A DNA stretch of 20,496 nt from a virus: positions 1-20,496 of the IMG/VR virus record IMGVR_UViG_3300022925_000231; one strand, written 5' to 3'. Of this stretch, positions 2,044 to 19,923 are shown one piece after another (positions within the stretch are counted from its first letter, which is position 1; each line of letters opens with the position of its first letter). Below the pieces are notes generated by a model, which was not told the DNA's origin, made no database searches, and was given only the letters and a program-made list of their open reading frames with translations. The position numbers were made by a program, and so were the translations under genes.

Positions 2044-2896
2044 GAACGATGAGCTTGGCAATGCTGCAGCTCACTTTTTTAAGTCAGGCAATATAATAAG
2101 AGGTAATGAGAATGATACTTTAGCAAAGTTAAAAGACTTATTGCCGAAGACTTCTCATAATGGCACTAGAGTAGAGTATGATGTGTGGTATGACATGGGA
2201 GACAACAATCAAGTTCATGGATATGTTTATACAGATGCTATGGCTAAATTTATTTATTTGAGACCTGCGGGAGCGCATCATTCCCATAAGATTATGCAAC
2301 AAGCCTCAAAAGAGCCTATAACAGAAGAAGGCGAGCGAATCTTTCAAGACTTAGCAGAGAATAGTGTAGACAAGTACAGACTAAGAAAAGCTAAAGAGCA
2401 TTATGACTTTGTTATTTTCTTACCTGGTACAAATATAATAAACGATGCTTTAAACTGGGATAAAATGGAAAATGCTATCAAGCAAGGAGCAAAATTAAAA
2501 TGTCATCCAATTACAGCTCCGGCGCTTGTTGCTAATCTCAAACATCGTTTTGGCGCAGAAAACATTCTCGATAAAAAGTTATCTGGCCACCAATTGCTAT
2601 CTCAAGCAAAAATTGTAGGATGTTGTGAGAATTCAGAGATGGGTATTGTATCATTAGCTCAAGGTAAAACCACGTACTTATTTGGGAATGGGCATAGACA
2701 TTTAACTTATAGTGCTTTATATAATACAATATGGAAGAATGGAAAACCGGATGTTAATAAGCTAAAGGCAATTCTTTCTAGCAAGTACTCAGGTCTTATA
2801 CCTGTTGTATCAGATAATCCACAAGAATATATAGATAGCTTTTTTAACCACCACAAGGATATGCCCCATGTTAAACCCAGAAATACTAATTCTTGA
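2021..2896 (+). CDS. GT-B / capsule-synthesis-like glycosyltransferase (putative)
   Basis: 291 aa. The ATG at 2021 has a good ribosome site, GAGGAG at 2008-2013, inside the coiled-coil gene. The C-terminal half resembles the nucleotide-sugar-binding half of GT-B enzymes of the capsule polysaccharide / polysialyltransferase type. A strand FVIFLPGTN (about 130-138) leads to KCHP (H162, P163), the 'HP' motif of these families, and then a helix and ENSEMGIVSLAQGK (203-216), which matches the usual pattern of an Asn-Ser element followed by a glycine-Lys turn. The N-terminal 100 residues are not recognisable. Its neighbour ending at 3593 may be a partner. The acceptor could be a virion protein, such as the Thr/Ser-rich fibre just upstream, or a host surface glycan. 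Family assignment is by motif pattern only. Confidence 0.45.
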   Translation: MPLVRLAENDELGNAAAHFFKSGNIIRGNENDTLAKLKDLLPKTSHNGTRVEYDVWYDMGDNNQVHGYVYTDAMAKFIYLRPAGAHHSHKIMQQASKEPITEEGERIFQDLAENSVDKYRLRKAKEHYDFVIFLPGTNIINDALNWDKMENAIKQGAKLKCHPITAPALVANLKHRFGAENILDKKLSGHQLLSQAKIVGCCENSEMGIVSLAQGKTTYLFGNGHRHLTYSALYNTIWKNGKPDVNKLKAILSSKYSGLIPVVSDNPQEYIDSFFNHHKDMPHVKPRNTNS

Positions 2897-3593
2897 TACT
2901 AATACGTTAACTCAGTTGACTATTAACTCAATAAAAAAGAATATGCCAAGAGCTAAGTATAAGGTAGTCAAATGTGGGGGTAGTAAAATAGGCACAGCTT
3001 TAGCCCATTGCAGTAAGCCTACCTTAGTAGTAAGCAGCGGGCTTGTATTAAACATTCGCCAAGGAGATCTGCCTAGTGAAGACAAGCTAAAAGATTACGA
3101 TATTTGCGTTAGTCGTGCAGGGGTTTATGTGGATCACCCTAAACTCAAAAATGTTTACTCACTTATAAACAGCCCTATAAATAAAGGGCATATTGATTTG
3201 TCTATTTTTATTATAAACCCTGCCAAATGGTACGAGATACCAAGTACAGATAAACAAATCTTAGCAAGTAAAAGAACTCTATATATGCCTAGATATATAA
3301 ATCATAAAAATGATGTTATTATTAAGGACTGCGTAGGTAGTTATGAAGCATTTCATTACGGAATGATGGGCGAGTCAGCTTCCGTTTATAATTATGTACC
3401 TCATCTACTATCGGGCAAAGCCACGCCCGTAGAGACTTTTGCTTATTGCTTTGATAAAATAGAGGACTATGTAGACGGGTTATCCGAACATAGAAAAAAT
3501 AAAATTTTAAAATTAGCTCAAAAGAGCAAGATTCGTATTTCTAAAATAAGAAAAGGAATAGCGGATTTGAAGAAAGGAGAACAAAATGTCTGA
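2868..3593 (+). CDS. Possible GT-A-like protein, function uncertain (241 aa)
   Basis: Start ATG 2868 overlaps the previous gene by 29 nt and has AAGGA at 2855-2859 ahead of it. The N-terminus (ILILDTNTLTQLTINSIKKN, residues 6-25, then YKVVKCGGSKIGTALA at 31-46) recalls the first beta-alpha-beta of family 2 GT-A glycosyltransferases, where a Val-Val-Asp-Asn-Gly strand is followed by a Gly-Thr helix. A later strand, LSIFIINPAKW (111-121), sits where such enzymes place a substrate-binding strand. A clear DxD metal motif is missing, so it may be inactive, use another mechanism or be an unrelated fold. The C-terminus is lysine-rich and probably helical. Its tight overlap with the GT-B-like gene suggests they work together. 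Confidence 0.35.
   Translation: MLNPEILILDTNTLTQLTINSIKKNMPRAKYKVVKCGGSKIGTALAHCSKPTLVVSSGLVLNIRQGDLPSEDKLKDYDICVSRAGVYVDHPKLKNVYSLINSPINKGHIDLSIFIINPAKWYEIPSTDKQILASKRTLYMPRYINHKNDVIIKDCVGSYEAFHYGMMGESASVYNYVPHLLSGKATPVETFAYCFDKIEDYVDGLSEHRKNKILKLAQKSKIRISKIRKGIADLKKGEQNV
3573..3579 (+). promoter_or_regulatory. Strong ribosome binding site for the 29-aa ORF
   Basis: AAAGGAG lies six bases before the ATG at 3586. It is the main evidence that this very short frame is translated. Confidence 0.6.
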
Positions 3594-3675
3594 TCCAGAA
3601 GATAGAACATATGAGGGGGATGAATCCACTAATCCCGTCCCACCTATGCCAACCCCACCAGCGGAGGAATTATAA
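3586..3675 (+). CDS. 29-aa acidic, proline-rich peptide
   Basis: ATG 3586 to TAA 3673-3675, overlapping the end of the previous gene by 8 nt. The product begins MSDPEDRTYEGDES and carries PVPPMPTPP near the end. The acidic first half and Pro-rich second half suggest it is unstructured. A near-ideal AAAGGAG at 3573-3579 precedes it, and its own last codons contain the GGAGG (3663-3667) used by the next gene, whose ATG shares the final A of the stop (TAATG). It is either a genuine micro-protein or a translated leader that couples the flanking genes. Confidence 0.5.
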   Translation: MSDPEDRTYEGDESTNPVPPMPTPPAEEL

Positions 3676-4367
3676 TGATTCATACTACATTACCATTGAG
3701 CTACATAGGAACATATGAAGAAGATATAAAACTCGGTTACGGCGTTGGTATCCCTTCTGACCGCTATATTTATCGCGACGATGTTTTGGACAGTATCCAT
3801 CACCGTAGAAGCCCTGAATATCATCCAGATAAATCCTATTTAATTAAGAATAAAAACTTAAACCTTATACTTTCTGGGGCATGGGAGTTTGAATGGTCTT
3901 GGGAAGAAGGGGACTTTACTGAAGAGCAAATTGATACTTTTATGGCCGAACCTCTTATACAGCCTAATGCAACTATTTTTAAGGATTTTGCTAACAATAA
4001 AGTCACTATCAATGTATCAAATGCAGATATTGAAATGGATAGCTGGGGAGTGTATAGACAATCATGGGTCTTAGCTTCTAAGACTGCAAAAATTACTAGT
4101 AAATCTAATAATGGTGGTATCCTGTGTATTGCTCTGTTAAATAACAGTTTTGATAGTTATAACATTGAGAGCAGGACGATAGAGCCTGGCACAGCAACTA
4201 CAATTGAAAAAGTTGGTTCAGAAGTTTGTTACTTTTTATTAAGCAGTGATCTTACTAAAGATGGAAACACACTAGAGCCTTTTAAAATGTATAAACTAAC
4301 ATCTGATTCTATATCTGTGGCAAACACTGGTGTAGATAGAACACGAATTATTCGTATAAGTAAATAG
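3675..4367 (+). CDS. Unknown phage protein, possibly virion-associated (230 aa)
   Basis: ATG 3675 has GGAGG at 3663-3667 with seven bases between. I do not recognise the family. Residues 15-55 are polar and aromatic (YEEDIKLGYG, SDRYIYRDD). The rest looks beta-rich, with short alternating strands and Asn/Ser/Gly turns (NNKVTINVSNAD, about 106-117; KSNNGGILCIALLNN, about 142-156). There is no signal peptide or membrane segment. This composition, and the position between the fibre and the lysis/terminator end of the rightward module, fit a small structural or receptor-binding beta-sandwich protein. That is inference from composition and position. Confidence 0.4.
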   Translation: MIHTTLPLSYIGTYEEDIKLGYGVGIPSDRYIYRDDVLDSIHHRRSPEYHPDKSYLIKNKNLNLILSGAWEFEWSWEEGDFTEEQIDTFMAEPLIQPNATIFKDFANNKVTINVSNADIEMDSWGVYRQSWVLASKTAKITSKSNNGGILCIALLNNSFDSYNIESRTIEPGTATTIEKVGSEVCYFLLSSDLTKDGNTLEPFKMYKLTSDSISVANTGVDRTRIIRISK

Positions 4368-4377
4368 GAGAAATAAA

Positions 4378-5187
4378 ATGTGGAATCCAATTAAAATAGC
4401 AAAGCTCACCAAAGCTATGTGGCAGAAGGGCGAAAATCAAGATGCCGACGATCTTATATCAGCAGCTTCTATTGCAAGAGATATGAATACTCAGATGGAG
4501 TTCCCGTCTAATATTAAAACTTTGCGTACATTTAGAGCAACCCCCAGGGGTAGGGATATTATGTGGGGAAGAAAAGATAAGACAAGAGAATTTCAGTTAA
4601 ATAATATTATTCCAGTTATTACTAATCAGAAAACTATGGAAACGTTTAGCCCTAACACTGTCGGGGGTCATTATAATCATTTGATCAAACAATGGTCTTT
4701 CCAAGAGTTATGGGATAAAAGATTTGAAGAGCCAGAAGTTCCAACAGCTATACAAGATATTAGAGGAAATCTTGCTCGTCATGTATTTCTAGCACATGAT
4801 TTTCAACATATTATGTTTCGATATGATACATCCCGATTAGGGGAGGCTTGTATTCAAGCTGTTACGTCTATTATGATCGGTGGGCATATAGGGCCTAAGT
4901 ACTTATCTTACGTTATGGCAGCTAGAGTGGCTTGGGATCATAAAAGTATGGAACCTTTTAAAGTTTTAAGAGAGGCGTATAAACTAGCGAAAGCTGTTGA
5001 TAGGTCTTTCTTTGAAATTAACCCTTTAGAGATTATTGAGTTAGACATTGAAGAAGCCCGAAATAAATTCAATATTGGGGTACCTGTTGAATACTTAAAG
5101 TTTGCTAGTAAACACAAGGAAGATTTTAGATTTGATCAAATTCATCCTGAATATAGTGACCGGGCGGTACAAGAAGTATGTTTATAA
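4378..5187 (+). CDS. COQ4-family (ubiquinone biosynthesis) protein
   Basis: 269 aa. AGGAG at 4366-4370 overlaps the previous stop and precedes ATG 4378 by seven bases. The centre carries the COQ4 metal signature HDxxHx11E: H140, D141, H144 and E156 (HDFQHIMFRYD, then GEA). Other COQ4-like features are FSPNTVGGHYNHLIKQ (90-105), equivalent to the 'TFG..Y..fm' segment, and a C-terminal EEARNKFNIGVP matching the usual 'R..LGI..P' ending. In mitochondria and bacteria COQ4 holds zinc and organises or catalyses a late step of coenzyme Q ring modification, acting at the membrane. The first 50 or so residues are an extra N-terminal extension. In a phage this would be an auxiliary metabolic gene, or a COQ4 fold reused for another lipid substrate. 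Family call is firm on the motif; the phage role is open. Confidence 0.72.
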   Translation: MWNPIKIAKLTKAMWQKGENQDADDLISAASIARDMNTQMEFPSNIKTLRTFRATPRGRDIMWGRKDKTREFQLNNIIPVITNQKTMETFSPNTVGGHYNHLIKQWSFQELWDKRFEEPEVPTAIQDIRGNLARHVFLAHDFQHIMFRYDTSRLGEACIQAVTSIMIGGHIGPKYLSYVMAARVAWDHKSMEPFKVLREAYKLAKAVDRSFFEINPLEIIELDIEEARNKFNIGVPVEYLKFASKHKEDFRFDQIHPEYSDRAVQEVCL

Positions 5188-5369
5188 AAAAGGGTAAATG
5201 GAACTGGCCTATATTAAAAATTCTGACAGGAAAAGAGCCTATTACTTTAAACTTTATAGTAAAAATACTAATTTTTGGTATAGGCTTTAAGTTGCTAATT
5301 ATAAATGGAATAGGAGTGTTGTTTTTTGGTATGGAACCCTTCCCTATTTTAAATTTCTTAACTGAATAA
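5178..5369 (+). CDS. Small single-helix membrane protein (63 aa), holin-like candidate
   Basis: ATG 5178 lies within the last codons of the COQ4-like gene (10-nt overlap) and the frame ends at TAA 5369, just before the terminator. The N-terminus is basic (MFIKKGKWNW). Residues about 25-52 are hydrophobic (NFIVKILIFGIGFKLLII onward), interrupted by one Lys, giving one or two short membrane spans. No strong ribosome site is visible, so coupling to the upstream gene is likely. Small membrane proteins at the end of a late module are often holins or spanin parts, but no endolysin is in the window. It could equally anchor the COQ4-like protein to the membrane. Confidence 0.5.
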   Translation: MFIKKGKWNWPILKILTGKEPITLNFIVKILIFGIGFKLLIINGIGVLFFGMEPFPILNFLTE

Positions 5370-5370
5370 T

Positions 5371-5402
5371 AAAAAGCCCGGAATTAACCGGGCTTCTTTT
5401 TA
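5371..5402. terminator. Bidirectional Rho-independent terminator
   Basis: Stem AAGCCCGG (5374-5381), loop AATTAA and CCGGGCTT (5388-5395) form a perfect eight-pair hairpin. A T-rich tract follows on the + strand and AAAAA precedes it, giving a U tract on the - strand. It sits between convergent genes ending at 5369 (+) and 5403 (-), so it can stop both modules. Confidence 0.92.
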
Positions 5403-13516: not shown

Positions 13517-13545
13517 ATTATACCAGAGTAGTGAGCAAAAGTCAA
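13517..13545 (-). promoter_or_regulatory. Sigma70-type promoter with extended -10
   Basis: On the minus strand TTGACT (13540-13545) and TATAAT (13517-13522) are separated by exactly 17 bases, and TGG directly before the -10 gives an extended -10. This is close to consensus for host housekeeping sigma factor. The -35 overlaps the stop codon of the oxygenase gene. Expected start point is about 13508-13511, so it would drive SSB, gp47, gp46 and the genes beyond. Confidence 0.75.
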
Positions 13546-14321
13546 GAACTATTTTTTTGAAAGTCATAATACTTTCTATCAATAGGTATTTCTTTATTCG
13601 ACCTTGCTAGTGGGACAGATATGGAAACTCGTGCACTGGCTGGTGATGCTTTATGAAACATCCCTGCAGGTATATACAATAAGTCCCCTGTTGTTAGTAC
13701 AGTATCAACTATAGTCTCGTACTTAGCCTCCTGTTCAGGTGGCATTGTCATTCTACTAGTAAACCGCTTTTTGCCGTCTTCACCGACTTCGCTTCTGGCA
13801 AATACATTGTATACTTTCCAGTGTACTTCTCCAATAGCATGAACAAGATAGTTATCGTCTGCATCTGCATGGCACTCAAAAGATACTGCATTTTCGCTCG
13901 GAGAGCAATAGAAGTGTGCATCTGCAGAAGAGTTCTGGTATCTATCTTCCAGGGCTTTGCCAATGGCTGAAATATTGGGACTAAACATGGAGGCTTTGGT
14001 AAGTATCATACTTCCACCTTTTTTCCATATGTCGTAAACGTACTCTTTTTCATAGTAGTCTTTTTTAGACCATGAGCTTTTCTGTCCACGATAAAGGTTT
14101 CCCTTTTCCATACACAATTTTTTGCCGTCTGGAGTAATCATCTGCAACCCCGCTACGGCTCTATCATTGCTAACATACTTTGAAATATCGTCCCAAGAAC
14201 AGATATTACTAAAGAAGTATCTTTTATACGCATCGGCACGAATAACGATTGGTTTCTTTCCTAGAATAGTTTCTTGGAACACATGGTCTGTGATCGGATG
14301 TATTAAGTCTTCGAATATCAT
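13542..14321 (-). CDS. JmjC/cupin-fold Fe(II)/2-oxoglutarate oxygenase
   Basis: 259 aa. The N-terminal segment LGKKPIVIRADAY (20-32) is the 'kkPlviRg' opening of cupin_4/cupin_8 (JmjC-type) hydroxylases. The iron triad is visible: H151 and D153 (FECHADADDNY) and H223 (IPAGMFHKASP). The strand between them, GEVHWKVYN (164-172), and a GDLLYIP strand match the double-stranded beta helix. This family, including bacterial YcfD/RoxA, hydroxylates protein side chains such as an Arg of ribosomal protein L16. Here the target is unknown; it could be a host translation factor or a phage protein. Its ATG overlaps the helicase stop as ATGA. Fold call is good, substrate is not visible. Confidence 0.75.
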   Translation of the reverse strand: MIFEDLIHPITDHVFQETILGKKPIVIRADAYKRYFFSNICSWDDISKYVSNDRAVAGLQMITPDGKKLCMEKGNLYRGQKSSWSKKDYYEKEYVYDIWKKGGSMILTKASMFSPNISAIGKALEDRYQNSSADAHFYCSPSENAVSFECHADADDNYLVHAIGEVHWKVYNVFARSEVGEDGKKRFTSRMTMPPEQEAKYETIVDTVLTTGDLLYIPAGMFHKASPASARVSISVPLARSNKEIPIDRKYYDFQKNSS

Positions 14322-16267: not shown

Positions 16268-16762
16268 TTATACTTTTCTTCTAGTATCTTTGAGCTTCGT
16301 TTCCGAATATTCAAAGAGCATCCACGGAAGTCCGTGGTAGTGGAGGACGGCTGCCCACTTCATTCCTTCGAGTGGAGGCCTCGGTACGATAAAAGGCTTT
16401 CTAACGCCTTCTAATCGCAATACACAAGCAACTTCTTTTAAAATCACTTCTGTAATTTTTATATACTTTAACTTACACATCAAGGTCTTTTCATAAATAA
16501 ATAAACGACCTTCACTGTCTATAAAAGTATTTGTTCTTTGTTTTAATATACCGTTTAGATCAACTAAGGCTTTTCTTAATTTTAGCAGCTCCCTATGAGG
16601 GGTTTGCATTCTTCGAATACCTAAAGTTTCCCCTGGCATATTTTTGTCGTCTATAAGCTGTTCATCTACAAATACTAATCCATCTGCCTGTAGCCAATTA
16701 GCGGAAGGCACTACGAATACAGGGAACTTAATGCTCTTGATAGACCGGTATGAGATCACCAC
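16268..16762 (-). CDS. Conserved phage protein of unknown function (164 aa)
   Basis: Starts at GTG 16762, chosen because AAAGGAG (16770-16776) stands seven bases upstream. It overlaps the radical SAM gene by 35 nt. The sequence has conserved-looking islands: FVVPSANWLQADGL (16-29), GETLGIRRMQTPH (44-56), a helical LLKLRKALVDL, the strand-rich FIDSEGRLFIYEK (80-92) and PRPPLEG...HYHGLPWMLFEYSET near the end. I associate this arrangement with an uncharacterised protein of T4-related cyanophages, without a known activity. The 35-nt overlap with the SPASM enzyme gene makes a shared job possible. No membrane segment, signal or catalytic motif is evident. Confidence 0.7.
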   Translation of the reverse strand: MVISYRSIKSIKFPVFVVPSANWLQADGLVFVDEQLIDDKNMPGETLGIRRMQTPHRELLKLRKALVDLNGILKQRTNTFIDSEGRLFIYEKTLMCKLKYIKITEVILKEVACVLRLEGVRKPFIVPRPPLEGMKWAAVLHYHGLPWMLFEYSETKLKDTRRKV

Positions 16763-17666
16763 CGCGTAGCTCCTTTATATATTCTAATCCTTCTTCACCT
16801 GCTATTTTAGCAACGTGCTGCCTATAGAAAGGAGTTTTTCTAAACTTTTCAATAGTGTTCATAGTATCTTTTCGGCCACCTTGACCATCATCACAACTGG
16901 CACAAGGAAGTATATCTCTACGCCTATTATTTATCAAAGACCAACGTATTCTATTTAATTTAGGGTCATTCACATACATATCCATTAAGCTACGTTCGTG
17001 AATATTGCCTATCTTAATTTGGTACTTCCAGTCGTTGCAACACATCTGGTAGTTACCCTTGTAGTCAATAAATATTTGTCGCATAGGATGCCAACAAGGA
17101 CTATCTAAGACTTTATCAGAGAACCAGCCTGCTCTATTGTTAAAAGCATATCTAAACTGTTTACCTTCGTTCTTAACATCATTCTGGTTTCCCAGCTTAT
17201 TTATTTCATCAACAGATAGACCATCTGGCTTAAAGTACTGATCTACAATAGTACCATTAGCAAGGCTTCTGTATTGAACTAGCCTTTCCTCAAAGTCTTC
17301 TCTGTTAGTATATGTGTTAAGTATAAGCTCATCAATTTTAGTATACGCTCTTGACCAGTGCTTTTTAATACGATAACCATTTGTAGTTACTCGTACTTTC
17401 CACTTACGTGGTTCCTGAGTTAGTAAGTCTATAACTTTCTCAAACTTAGGGTGTGTAGTAGGCTCGCCTCTCCCCGCTAACTCGATAAAGCCTTTAAAAT
17501 CTATACTTCGTAGTTCTTCCAGAACTGTTTCTATAGTTTTAAAAGACATGATCTCATTTACATTAGGGTAGGTAGGGTTAGACCTAGGACAGAAACTACA
17601 CGTTTTATTGCATAGTCCTGTCAGGTCAAGGTCAATCCTATAAATGTATTTAGTAAGTTGATCCAT
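16728..17666 (-). CDS. Radical SAM/SPASM-domain enzyme
   Basis: 312 aa from ATG 17666 (MDQLTKYIYRIDLDLTG), 17 nt inside the polymerase gene. Longer reads of the frame only translate polymerase sequence in another frame. CNKTCSFC gives the CxxxCxxC cluster (C19, C23, C26) that binds the 4Fe-4S and SAM, and GRGEP (65-69) is the SAM-binding glycine motif. The C-terminal half has C191 (PCWHPM), C209/C210 (MCCNDW) and C255/C258 (LPCASCD), with NIHERSLMDMY, the SPASM pattern that binds extra iron-sulphur clusters. SPASM enzymes usually modify peptides or proteins. It is not QueE-like by length or motif. The substrate may be the co-expressed 164-aa protein or another phage product. Confidence 0.88.
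   Translation of the reverse strand: MDQLTKYIYRIDLDLTGLCNKTCSFCPRSNPTYPNVNEIMSFKTIETVLEELRSIDFKGFIELAGRGEPTTHPKFEKVIDLLTQEPRKWKVRVTTNGYRIKKHWSRAYTKIDELILNTYTNREDFEERLVQYRSLANGTIVDQYFKPDGLSVDEINKLGNQNDVKNEGKQFRYAFNNRAGWFSDKVLDSPCWHPMRQIFIDYKGNYQMCCNDWKYQIKIGNIHERSLMDMYVNDPKLNRIRWSLINNRRRDILPCASCDDGQGGRKDTMNTIEKFRKTPFYRQHVAKIAGEEGLEYIKELRGGDLIPVYQEH
16770..16776 (-). promoter_or_regulatory. Strong ribosome binding site for the GTG start at 16762
   Basis: AAAGGAG on the minus strand, seven bases before GTG 16762 and within the end of the radical SAM gene. It settles a start that would otherwise be doubtful. Confidence 0.7.
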
Positions 17667-19923
17667 ATAATTTTTCAAATTTGCCCATTGAATAGTCATC
17701 ACCAATATCGAAGTCACAACCAACCGGAGCACCTGGGATATAAATACCCCTGTCCTTTTGTACCGCATCCAATAGAATAGCAGTATAGTCCTCTATTTCA
17801 CCTTCTGGCACTTCTGCTAGAATGGAGTCGTGTACAAGGGCAAATATGCGTGCCTTCATACCTTTTGCTTTTATCATTAGCTCTGCGTCTATAGCGCCTA
17901 GGAGGTTAATATCAGATGCAGCAGACTGCACCAGAAAATTAAGACCAGACCTAATGCTATGAGATTTGATGCCTTGATCTTCAGATCCAACATTTGGTAA
18001 TCTCCGCTTTCTACCGAAGTAGCTGTAAATAAACCCATTTTGTTCGATGAATTTATGGTTATCGTTTATCCACTCGCGTAGCTTATGGAAAGTTTTAAAG
18101 TAATCATCGATTACCTCTTTTGCTTCTTGTGGACTAAAGTACTTGCCCGAATCTTTTGTAACCTGTTCACTAATCTTCTTTGGGCCAGCTCCATACATAA
18201 TACCGAAGGTTACAGCCTTTGCAGCCTGTCGGCGATCTGGATAGAGTTCTGCTACGTCTTCCACGGCACAAGGAAGGCTGAACACTTTGTGAGCAATAGT
18301 ACTGTGGAAGTTTCCGCCTGAACGAAACACATCCATCAATGCTTTATCTTTTGCTAGAACTGCTGCAACATATACTTCTGCTGTTGTTAAGTCCATTGCG
18401 ACAATCTTGTGTCCAGGGGCAGCTTTAATACAGCCTTTAACAGTAGGATTATCTCGTGGAAGCTGTTGCATATTCAACTTACCACTTGAACTTAAACGAC
18501 CAGATGTAGTACTATGCAGATTAAAGCCTGTACGCAAACGACTATCTCGGTCAAGCTGTGGAATAATCTTATCAAGATAAGTATTCTTTATCTTAGACTT
18601 CTGACGAATAGAAAGAATAAGGGCTGGAACCTCTGATTGCTCCGCCAGCTCATTCAATACTTCTGCATCTGTAGAGTCTGCACCAGTACCGGTTTTCTTA
18701 CCTGTAGGGCGTAAACCTAAAAAGTCAAACATTAACTTTCGTAGTTGTACTGTAGAGTTAGGGTTGAACTCCTTGCCCTGTATCTCTTCAAACTTACGGA
18801 TAGCGGGATTCTCGTATAAAGATGCCACTGCCGTATCAATGTCCTTTTGCATCTCCTCTTGAGAGAATTCTAGGCGTTTGCGATCAAAGGGTACCCCATT
18901 GTCTTGAATGTCAGTAAGAAAACGACAGCCTGGAATAAGAATATTCTCATACACCCAGTTTAGCTTTTTGTTCTGTTTGATCTTAATAAATTTCTCATAG
19001 AGAATAAACGTACAAAGTGCGTCCATCCCCGCATAGGTTTTCATAATATCAAAAGGAATATCACCCCAGTTGAATTGACTTTTTAGAATGCCGTTAGCTT
19101 TCTTATATGAGTCGATCCAGTCGTACATTGGCTTTTCATAGTCACCGTAAGGAGTGAACTTCATAGTAAGCTGCTTCAATCCATGAGTACCTGGGTTCTC
19201 ATCAATAAGATAATGAAGAAGCATTGTATCTTCGAAGACTGGAAACTTAAAGTTAAAGTGGTACTCAAAGAACGCCATATCGAACTTAGCGTTGTGGAAT
19301 ACTACAGTCTTTTTGTTAAACAACTCTTGAAGCAGTTCTTCTGTAGTCTCGTCAAAACACTCTGTATCAATATATGCGCCCTTCTGATCACAATACGCTA
19401 GTGAAATACCGAGCATATGACCGTCACGAGGATAAAGACCAGTTGTTTCGGAGTCAAGTGCGATATAAGGAAGCGGAGCATCAATAGCTGCTTGAATATA
19501 CGCATTAGCTTCTTCAGTATCTTGAATACCGAAAGAGATAGAGGAATCAATTATTACATCTTTGACTTCGCCAGCAATATGTGCAATAACACTTTCTTTA
19601 CTAGAGTCCCATACTTTCTGTACTTCAGGCTTAAAGCGAAGCATAGCAGGGTTGATAATTGGAAGGAACTTACCCTCCACTTTCTTACCAGAGTATTCTG
19701 TAACAGAATTGATTTTGGTAAAGTACTTGAGAGCATCCGATCCTACTAGTATCACCCAGTCGTAATCATCTGTGTCAAGTTGAATGTCACAGTCTCTCTT
19801 TAATACTTTCTTTAGGGTAGGGTCAGAACACAGTTGGAACTGATCGAAAGAAAAAGCGTCGTCAAACGCCTGTTTAAAATTGGTATTGCTTGGCTTCGTT
19901 TCTACTAATGCAACTTTAGGCAT
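17650..19923 (-). CDS. Family A DNA polymerase with 3'-5' exonuclease
   Basis: 757 aa; replicates the phage genome. GAGG precedes ATG 19923. Residues 1-115 resemble the uracil-DNA-glycosylase fold (ILVGSDALKYF, 58-68; PIINPAMLRFKPE, 88-100) but lack the catalytic GEAPG-type motif. The proofreading domain is intact: D157/E159 (LDSETTG), N211/D215 (HNAKFD) and Y297/D301 (YAGMD). Polymerase motif A is D511-E516 (MDLTTAEVY, unusual against the common DYSQIELR), motif B RRQAAKAVTFGIMYG (564-578) has R565, K569 and Y577, and the position matching E. coli F762 is F573. Motif C is ALVHDS (H698, D699). No 5'-3' exonuclease domain is present; that activity is the separate gene at 8367-9212. Confidence 0.96.
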   Translation of the reverse strand: MPKVALVETKPSNTNFKQAFDDAFSFDQFQLCSDPTLKKVLKRDCDIQLDTDDYDWVILVGSDALKYFTKINSVTEYSGKKVEGKFLPIINPAMLRFKPEVQKVWDSSKESVIAHIAGEVKDVIIDSSISFGIQDTEEANAYIQAAIDAPLPYIALDSETTGLYPRDGHMLGISLAYCDQKGAYIDTECFDETTEELLQELFNKKTVVFHNAKFDMAFFEYHFNFKFPVFEDTMLLHYLIDENPGTHGLKQLTMKFTPYGDYEKPMYDWIDSYKKANGILKSQFNWGDIPFDIMKTYAGMDALCTFILYEKFIKIKQNKKLNWVYENILIPGCRFLTDIQDNGVPFDRKRLEFSQEEMQKDIDTAVASLYENPAIRKFEEIQGKEFNPNSTVQLRKLMFDFLGLRPTGKKTGTGADSTDAEVLNELAEQSEVPALILSIRQKSKIKNTYLDKIIPQLDRDSRLRTGFNLHSTTSGRLSSSGKLNMQQLPRDNPTVKGCIKAAPGHKIVAMDLTTAEVYVAAVLAKDKALMDVFRSGGNFHSTIAHKVFSLPCAVEDVAELYPDRRQAAKAVTFGIMYGAGPKKISEQVTKDSGKYFSPQEAKEVIDDYFKTFHKLREWINDNHKFIEQNGFIYSYFGRKRRLPNVGSEDQGIKSHSIRSGLNFLVQSAASDINLLGAIDAELMIKAKGMKARIFALVHDSILAEVPEGEIEDYTAILLDAVQKDRGIYIPGAPVGCDFDIGDDYSMGKFEKLYGSTY

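Follow-up and report, generated by a model that had tools for sequence, protein, structure and literature searches.

A phage-only clade of COQ4-family proteins and its small membrane-type partner

We found that the 269-amino-acid protein encoded at positions 4378-5187 (+ strand, ATG start) of the window, by which we mean the whole 20,496-base IMG/VR virus record analysed here, is a member of the COQ4 family, an assignment that is well supported by a Pfam match, the predicted fold and a metal-binding motif. In cells, COQ4 takes part in making the respiratory molecule coenzyme Q. The phage of the window is one seen in metagenomes alone. On the sequence comparisons given below, the phage proteins are a phage-only clade, apart from the sampled bacterial COQ4 proteins and present in several unrelated phages. 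The clade and its dedicated membrane partner go beyond what had first been read from the window.

Motif, profile matches and predicted fold of the window protein

The original prediction had named the gene a COQ4 homologue carrying the metal signature of the family, and both parts of this claim were borne out. The putative metal ligands H140, D141, H144 and E156, which form the pattern HDxxHx11E within HDFQHIMFRYDTSRLGE, are invariant in an alignment of 25 non-redundant homologues, and the pattern is found on average only 0.0145 times in shuffled window ORFs as compared with the one occurrence observed. The protein begins with MWNPIKI and carries the core motif PNTVGxxY at residues 92-99. Pfam Coq4 was the sole family matched by the window protein, over profile positions 74-218 of 221, with a score of 18.2 bits (E 0.0016) that lies below the curated cut-off of 22.9. 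This cut-off was passed by relatives at 58% and about 28% identity to the window protein, the two tested singly being L035 (25.9 bits) and L063 (25.5 bits), and all 25 non-redundant members matched the family, the best at 3.3e-13. When a profile of the phage proteins was compared with one built from 13 bacterial COQ4 sequences, the two aligned over 193 columns with E = 4.9e-21 and a probability of 99.4. A profile search of the PDB sequences with the phage family retrieved 3msq at 8.3e-5, and NCBIfam gave matches at chance level only.

The AlphaFold model of the window protein (pLDDT 80.4) resembles two cyanobacterial COQ4-like proteins, Alr8543 of Nostoc (6e12; Z 17.3, 203 residues, 2.8 A) and Npun02000094 (3msq; Z 16.3), the next row having a Z of 5.3. 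The fold is the same although the identity over aligned residues is only 13-16%, and the spacing of the metal ligands is equivalent (H120/D121/H124/E136 in the cyanobacterial protein, H140/D141/H144/E156 in the phage protein). The reading was to be given up if a profile search yielded no COQ4 hit and the model lacked the COQ4 helical bundle; the profile is matched, at the score below cut-off given above, and the bundle is there. A 50-residue N-terminal extension, which had also been proposed, did not hold up because the N-terminal helices have counterparts in Alr8543. Model residues 1-235 pair with residues 5-216 of 6e12, with a pLDDT under 50 at residues 1-9 and 20-30, and what the model adds to 6e12 is internal together with about 34 C-terminal residues.

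The phage clade within the COQ4 family

Scanning IMG/VR with an alignment of the conserved core yielded 57 loci, hence at least 58 with the window. The motif HDxxHx(10-13)E is kept in all 58, a count that is partly ascertained because the patterns of the core scan contained either the TVG motif or the second histidine of the metal motif. Nearly all 58 proteins start with M(A)WN or MWD, the start being uncertain at L054 and cut by the contig end at L037. The first search for homologues had used the pattern MWNPIKI and was thus biased toward N-terminal conservation; the rescan with the core alone still gave M(A)WN in nearly all.

A tblastn search of 50,697 isolate phage records with three divergent phage COQ4 proteins gave nothing at E <= 0.1 (0.01 for the window query), and the window query at E <= 10 returned one match at chance level. 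None of the PHROGs families was matched by the three phage members tried. When 84,980 prokaryote genomes were scanned for the phage-type motifs, which do not cover all COQ4 proteins, the phage-type protein was not detected, and our literature search retrieved no paper tying COQ4 to phages.

In the tree, a branch with 100/100 support separates the 25 phage rows from the 29 bacterial COQ4 rows; this branch is long (2.15 changes per column). The HDxxHx11E motif and the profile match are common to the phage protein and the COQ4 family (PF05019), including human and yeast COQ4, from which the phage clade differs by its M(A)WN start, an HPEYxD-type C-terminal tail in many members and the small membrane partner. 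The COQ4 proteins of Cupriavidus, Sphingomonas and Phenylobacterium, which belong to the separate bacterial clade, have the core motifs GTVGAAY and HDIWHVLxGY...GE. Bacterial COQ4 reads GTVGAAY and HDIWHVLTGYxADExLGE where the phage proteins read NTVGxxY and HDxWHVLFRYDTxxxGE. Bacterial COQ4 is itself patchy: of 289 genomes taken from the class of an alphaproteobacterium, 27 have it. It may therefore be that these bacterial proteins are not core enzymes of ubiquinone synthesis, and that the phage protein uses a different substrate. Three bacterial genomes of the sampled class (G056, G147 and G250) have four to six COQ4 matches each, which suggests bacterial uses of COQ4 beyond one ubiquinone step.

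A real, if less likely, alternative is therefore that the COQ4 fold has been reused on another polyprenyl lipid, for instance undecaprenyl phosphate or other isoprenoid carriers, and that the phages would change envelope synthesis or block superinfection instead of acting on quinone synthesis. Proteins of this fold bind long isoprenoid or fatty chains (6e12, PMC9774615), and the distance of the phage clade, the patchy and sometimes multi-copy bacterial distribution and the position of the window copy among fibre-like genes would all suit such a reuse. However, the metal motif and adjoining core motifs are the same as in bacterial COQ4, and the redox and Fe-S neighbours found at 18 loci (see below) suit quinones or respiration better.

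Partner gene, neighbourhoods and phage backbones

Directly after the COQ4 gene lies c1 (5178-5369, + strand), a 63-amino-acid membrane protein whose frame overlaps the COQ4 stop by 10 nt and whose long hydrophobic stretch runs from about residue 24 to 50. Across loci, c1 has 60-80 amino acids, one long hydrophobic stretch and five invariant residues (W8, P11, K38, N43 and P56 in the window), and it usually overlaps the stop of COQ4. Of 57 testable loci, 53 have c1 directly after the phage COQ4 gene; among the others, L038 and L039 lack it and L023 and L024 have merely a 40-residue hydrophobic ORF. The divergence of c1 tracks that of COQ4 (Mantel r 0.54, p 0.0002). Independent scans with c1 found COQ4 upstream wherever the contig was long enough, except in one lineage (L257-L261). 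A search with the c1 profile detected no c1-like gene at the bacterial COQ4 loci searched, those of Cupriavidus, Sphingomonas and Phenylobacterium included. To our knowledge, the cyanobacterial COQ4-like proteins have no small membrane partner.

The exceptional lineage led us to reject c1 as an obligate partner of COQ4. Its five contigs have c2 followed by c1 with no COQ4 between them, and COQ4 is absent from both contigs of the lineage that were searched whole (34 and 45 kb). The order there is c2, c1 and an M15-like peptidase ORF, the last recognised by sequence reading and not profile-tested, and c1 may serve a separate function.

We considered that COQ4 and c1 could together bring about lysis or set its timing, c1 being holin-like and COQ4 a lipid-binding regulator. 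A small membrane protein that ends the late genes, and that in L257-L261 stands just upstream of the peptidase ORF, would fit this. But in the window's 69-kb relative a holin (GTA_holin_3TM, 3.7e-20) and a lysozyme are encoded at another place, which rejects c1 as the only holin in the window's group; L036 has a separate M15 endolysin; in L260, by reading, the peptidase is followed by another holin-like ORF; and c1 of L063 matches nothing in Pfam or PHROGs, hence no known holin family. On balance we hold a lysis role to be improbable.

The gene directly upstream of COQ4 is one of two, c2 at 40 of the 58 loci (the window included) and c7 at 18, never both. In the window, c2 (3675-4367, + strand) encodes 230 amino acids and had been taken as a structural-type gene. 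Its model (pLDDT 93.7) has instead a bicupin-like predicted fold, the leading structural rows being bicupins and pirin/YhhW-like proteins with a best Z of 8.9, to the YhhW pirin; a Z near 8 is modest and can reflect common arrangements, and the assignment is a statement on fold only. An alignment of c2 shows no conserved cupin metal histidines, the invariant columns being R34, G68, W76, C151, S210 and N217. No PHROGs or Pfam match was obtained with the members tried, and c2 was dropped as a recognisable virion protein.

The alternative neighbour, c7, is a membrane-type protein of 53-64 amino acids that stands upstream of COQ4 within a redox/Fe-S gene set (18 loci). Encoded in this setting are an adenylate-cyclase-like protein, a weakly nucleotidase-like protein, a peroxiredoxin, a phosphoribosyltransferase, a NifU_N scaffold, an A-type Fe-S protein, a glycosyltransferase and, as judged by sequence reading, a glutaredoxin. 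At L035 (4091-7346) and related loci, peroxiredoxin, phosphoribosyltransferase, NifU_N, A-type Fe-S and glutaredoxin genes surround the COQ4-c1 pair. A NifU_N gene is also present in the 69-kb relative. The phage family phrog_8429, a NifU-like Fe-S assembly protein encoded by a phage auxiliary gene, is represented in this relative; NifU_N stands beside COQ4 in many loci, and the phrog_8429 product differs from the phage COQ4 protein and is a companion only. The NifU_N-like gene of the 69-kb relative (L224, 9266-9706) contains an apparent in-frame repeat in which DEDASNVGTGMVGAPACGDVM occurs twice; it may be genuine or stem from faulty assembly. The c2/c7 label switches at least five to six times over the phage COQ4 tree, from which it follows that the COQ4-c1 pair moved between settings.

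The window gene had been placed in a late, fibre-type module, and this was confirmed: on the + strand it comes after Thr-rich fibre-like sequence, and the gene run ends just after c1 at a terminator-like hairpin (5374-5395, AAGCCCGG-AATTAA-CCGGGCTT then CTTTTTATTA), a consensus match only, with two sites found for 1.3 expected. The accompanying claim that the neighbours are structural and not metabolic stands for the window and fails for the family, given the 18 redox/Fe-S loci. Two further conserved neighbours, phrog_26179 (2021-2896, + strand) and c38 (2868-3593, + strand), keep their order in close relatives. The Thr-rich repetitive frame at 2-1900 looks like a tail fibre and is cut by the contig end. 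On the - strand, a JmjC/cupin-type oxygenase-like protein (13542-14321; JmjC_2, 2.7e-15) is encoded among replication genes and a Radical SAM protein with a SPASM domain at 16728-17768. No further ubiquinone gene was recognised in the window.

That the COQ4-like protein is a virion part or an assembly helper is very improbable in our estimation. Where c2 is directly upstream (40 loci), the gene does often follow fibre-type genes, but it stands in metabolic surroundings without c2 at the other 18, its product has the COQ4 bundle fold with a kept metal site, and its partner c1 is a membrane-type protein.

The COQ4-c1 pair occurs in several phage backbones. The DNA polymerase of the window shares about 44% identity with its counterparts in Aeromonas and Vibrio phages that have genomes near 115 kb and that we take to be T5-like, and the 69-kb relative carries tape measure and prohead protease genes. 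Relatives of L035 have a cyclase-like gene in common with the Kyanoviridae phages HTVC008M and Melnitz, and relatives of L063 have a virion protein in common with HTVC106P and others; HTVC008M, Melnitz and HTVC106P themselves lack the COQ4 gene.

Selection and proposed function

Between the window and L002, pN/pS was 0.136 for COQ4, 0.120 for NrdB, 0.139 for NrdA, 0.298 for c1 and 0.571 for c2, values that are approximate because synonymous sites are near saturation. Judged by these ratios, the COQ4 gene is under strong purifying selection, like ribonucleotide reductase. The kept metal site, this selection and the redox/Fe-S setting of 18 loci favour an active enzyme that would serve in respiration or redox. 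They also lend indirect backing to the original proposal, in itself plausible, that the phage may sustain respiration or alter host quinones. The nearly constant pairing with the same tiny membrane protein suggests that lipids or quinones in the membrane of the host are what these phages act on.

We give an even chance to the phage protein being a metal-dependent, membrane-docked enzyme whose target in the host is an isoprenoid quinone or related prenyl lipid. It would be an active protein docked on the host inner membrane, where c1 may dock or gate it. Alr8543 binds Mg2+ at the motif together with a lipid chain (PMC9774615), and the pocket of the phage protein would likewise hold an isoprenoid tail. 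Human COQ4 is reported to be a C1 oxidative decarboxylase that, in one step, puts a hydroxyl in place of the C1 carboxyl on precursors of coenzyme Q (PMC11495197); in the phage protein, the metal centre may act on a prenylated quinone or its precursor by a comparable decarboxylation and hydroxylation at C1. The phage would in this manner keep up or alter the quinone pool and respiration of the host late in infection. Of the steps in this explanation, the identity of the substrate is the weakest. More tentatively, the COQ4-like enzyme and c1 could constitute a two-protein membrane system that is specific to phages and common to unrelated ones. Late in infection it would remodel the host's quinone pool or a related prenyl lipid, and the bicupin-fold c2 or the c7/Fe-S set would be its alternative accessory partners.

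Should quinones prove to be the target of the pair, phages would tune the respiratory chain directly at its lipid carrier. A COQ4 paired tightly with a membrane protein of 60-80 amino acids would also offer a minimal system for the action of COQ4 at the membrane.
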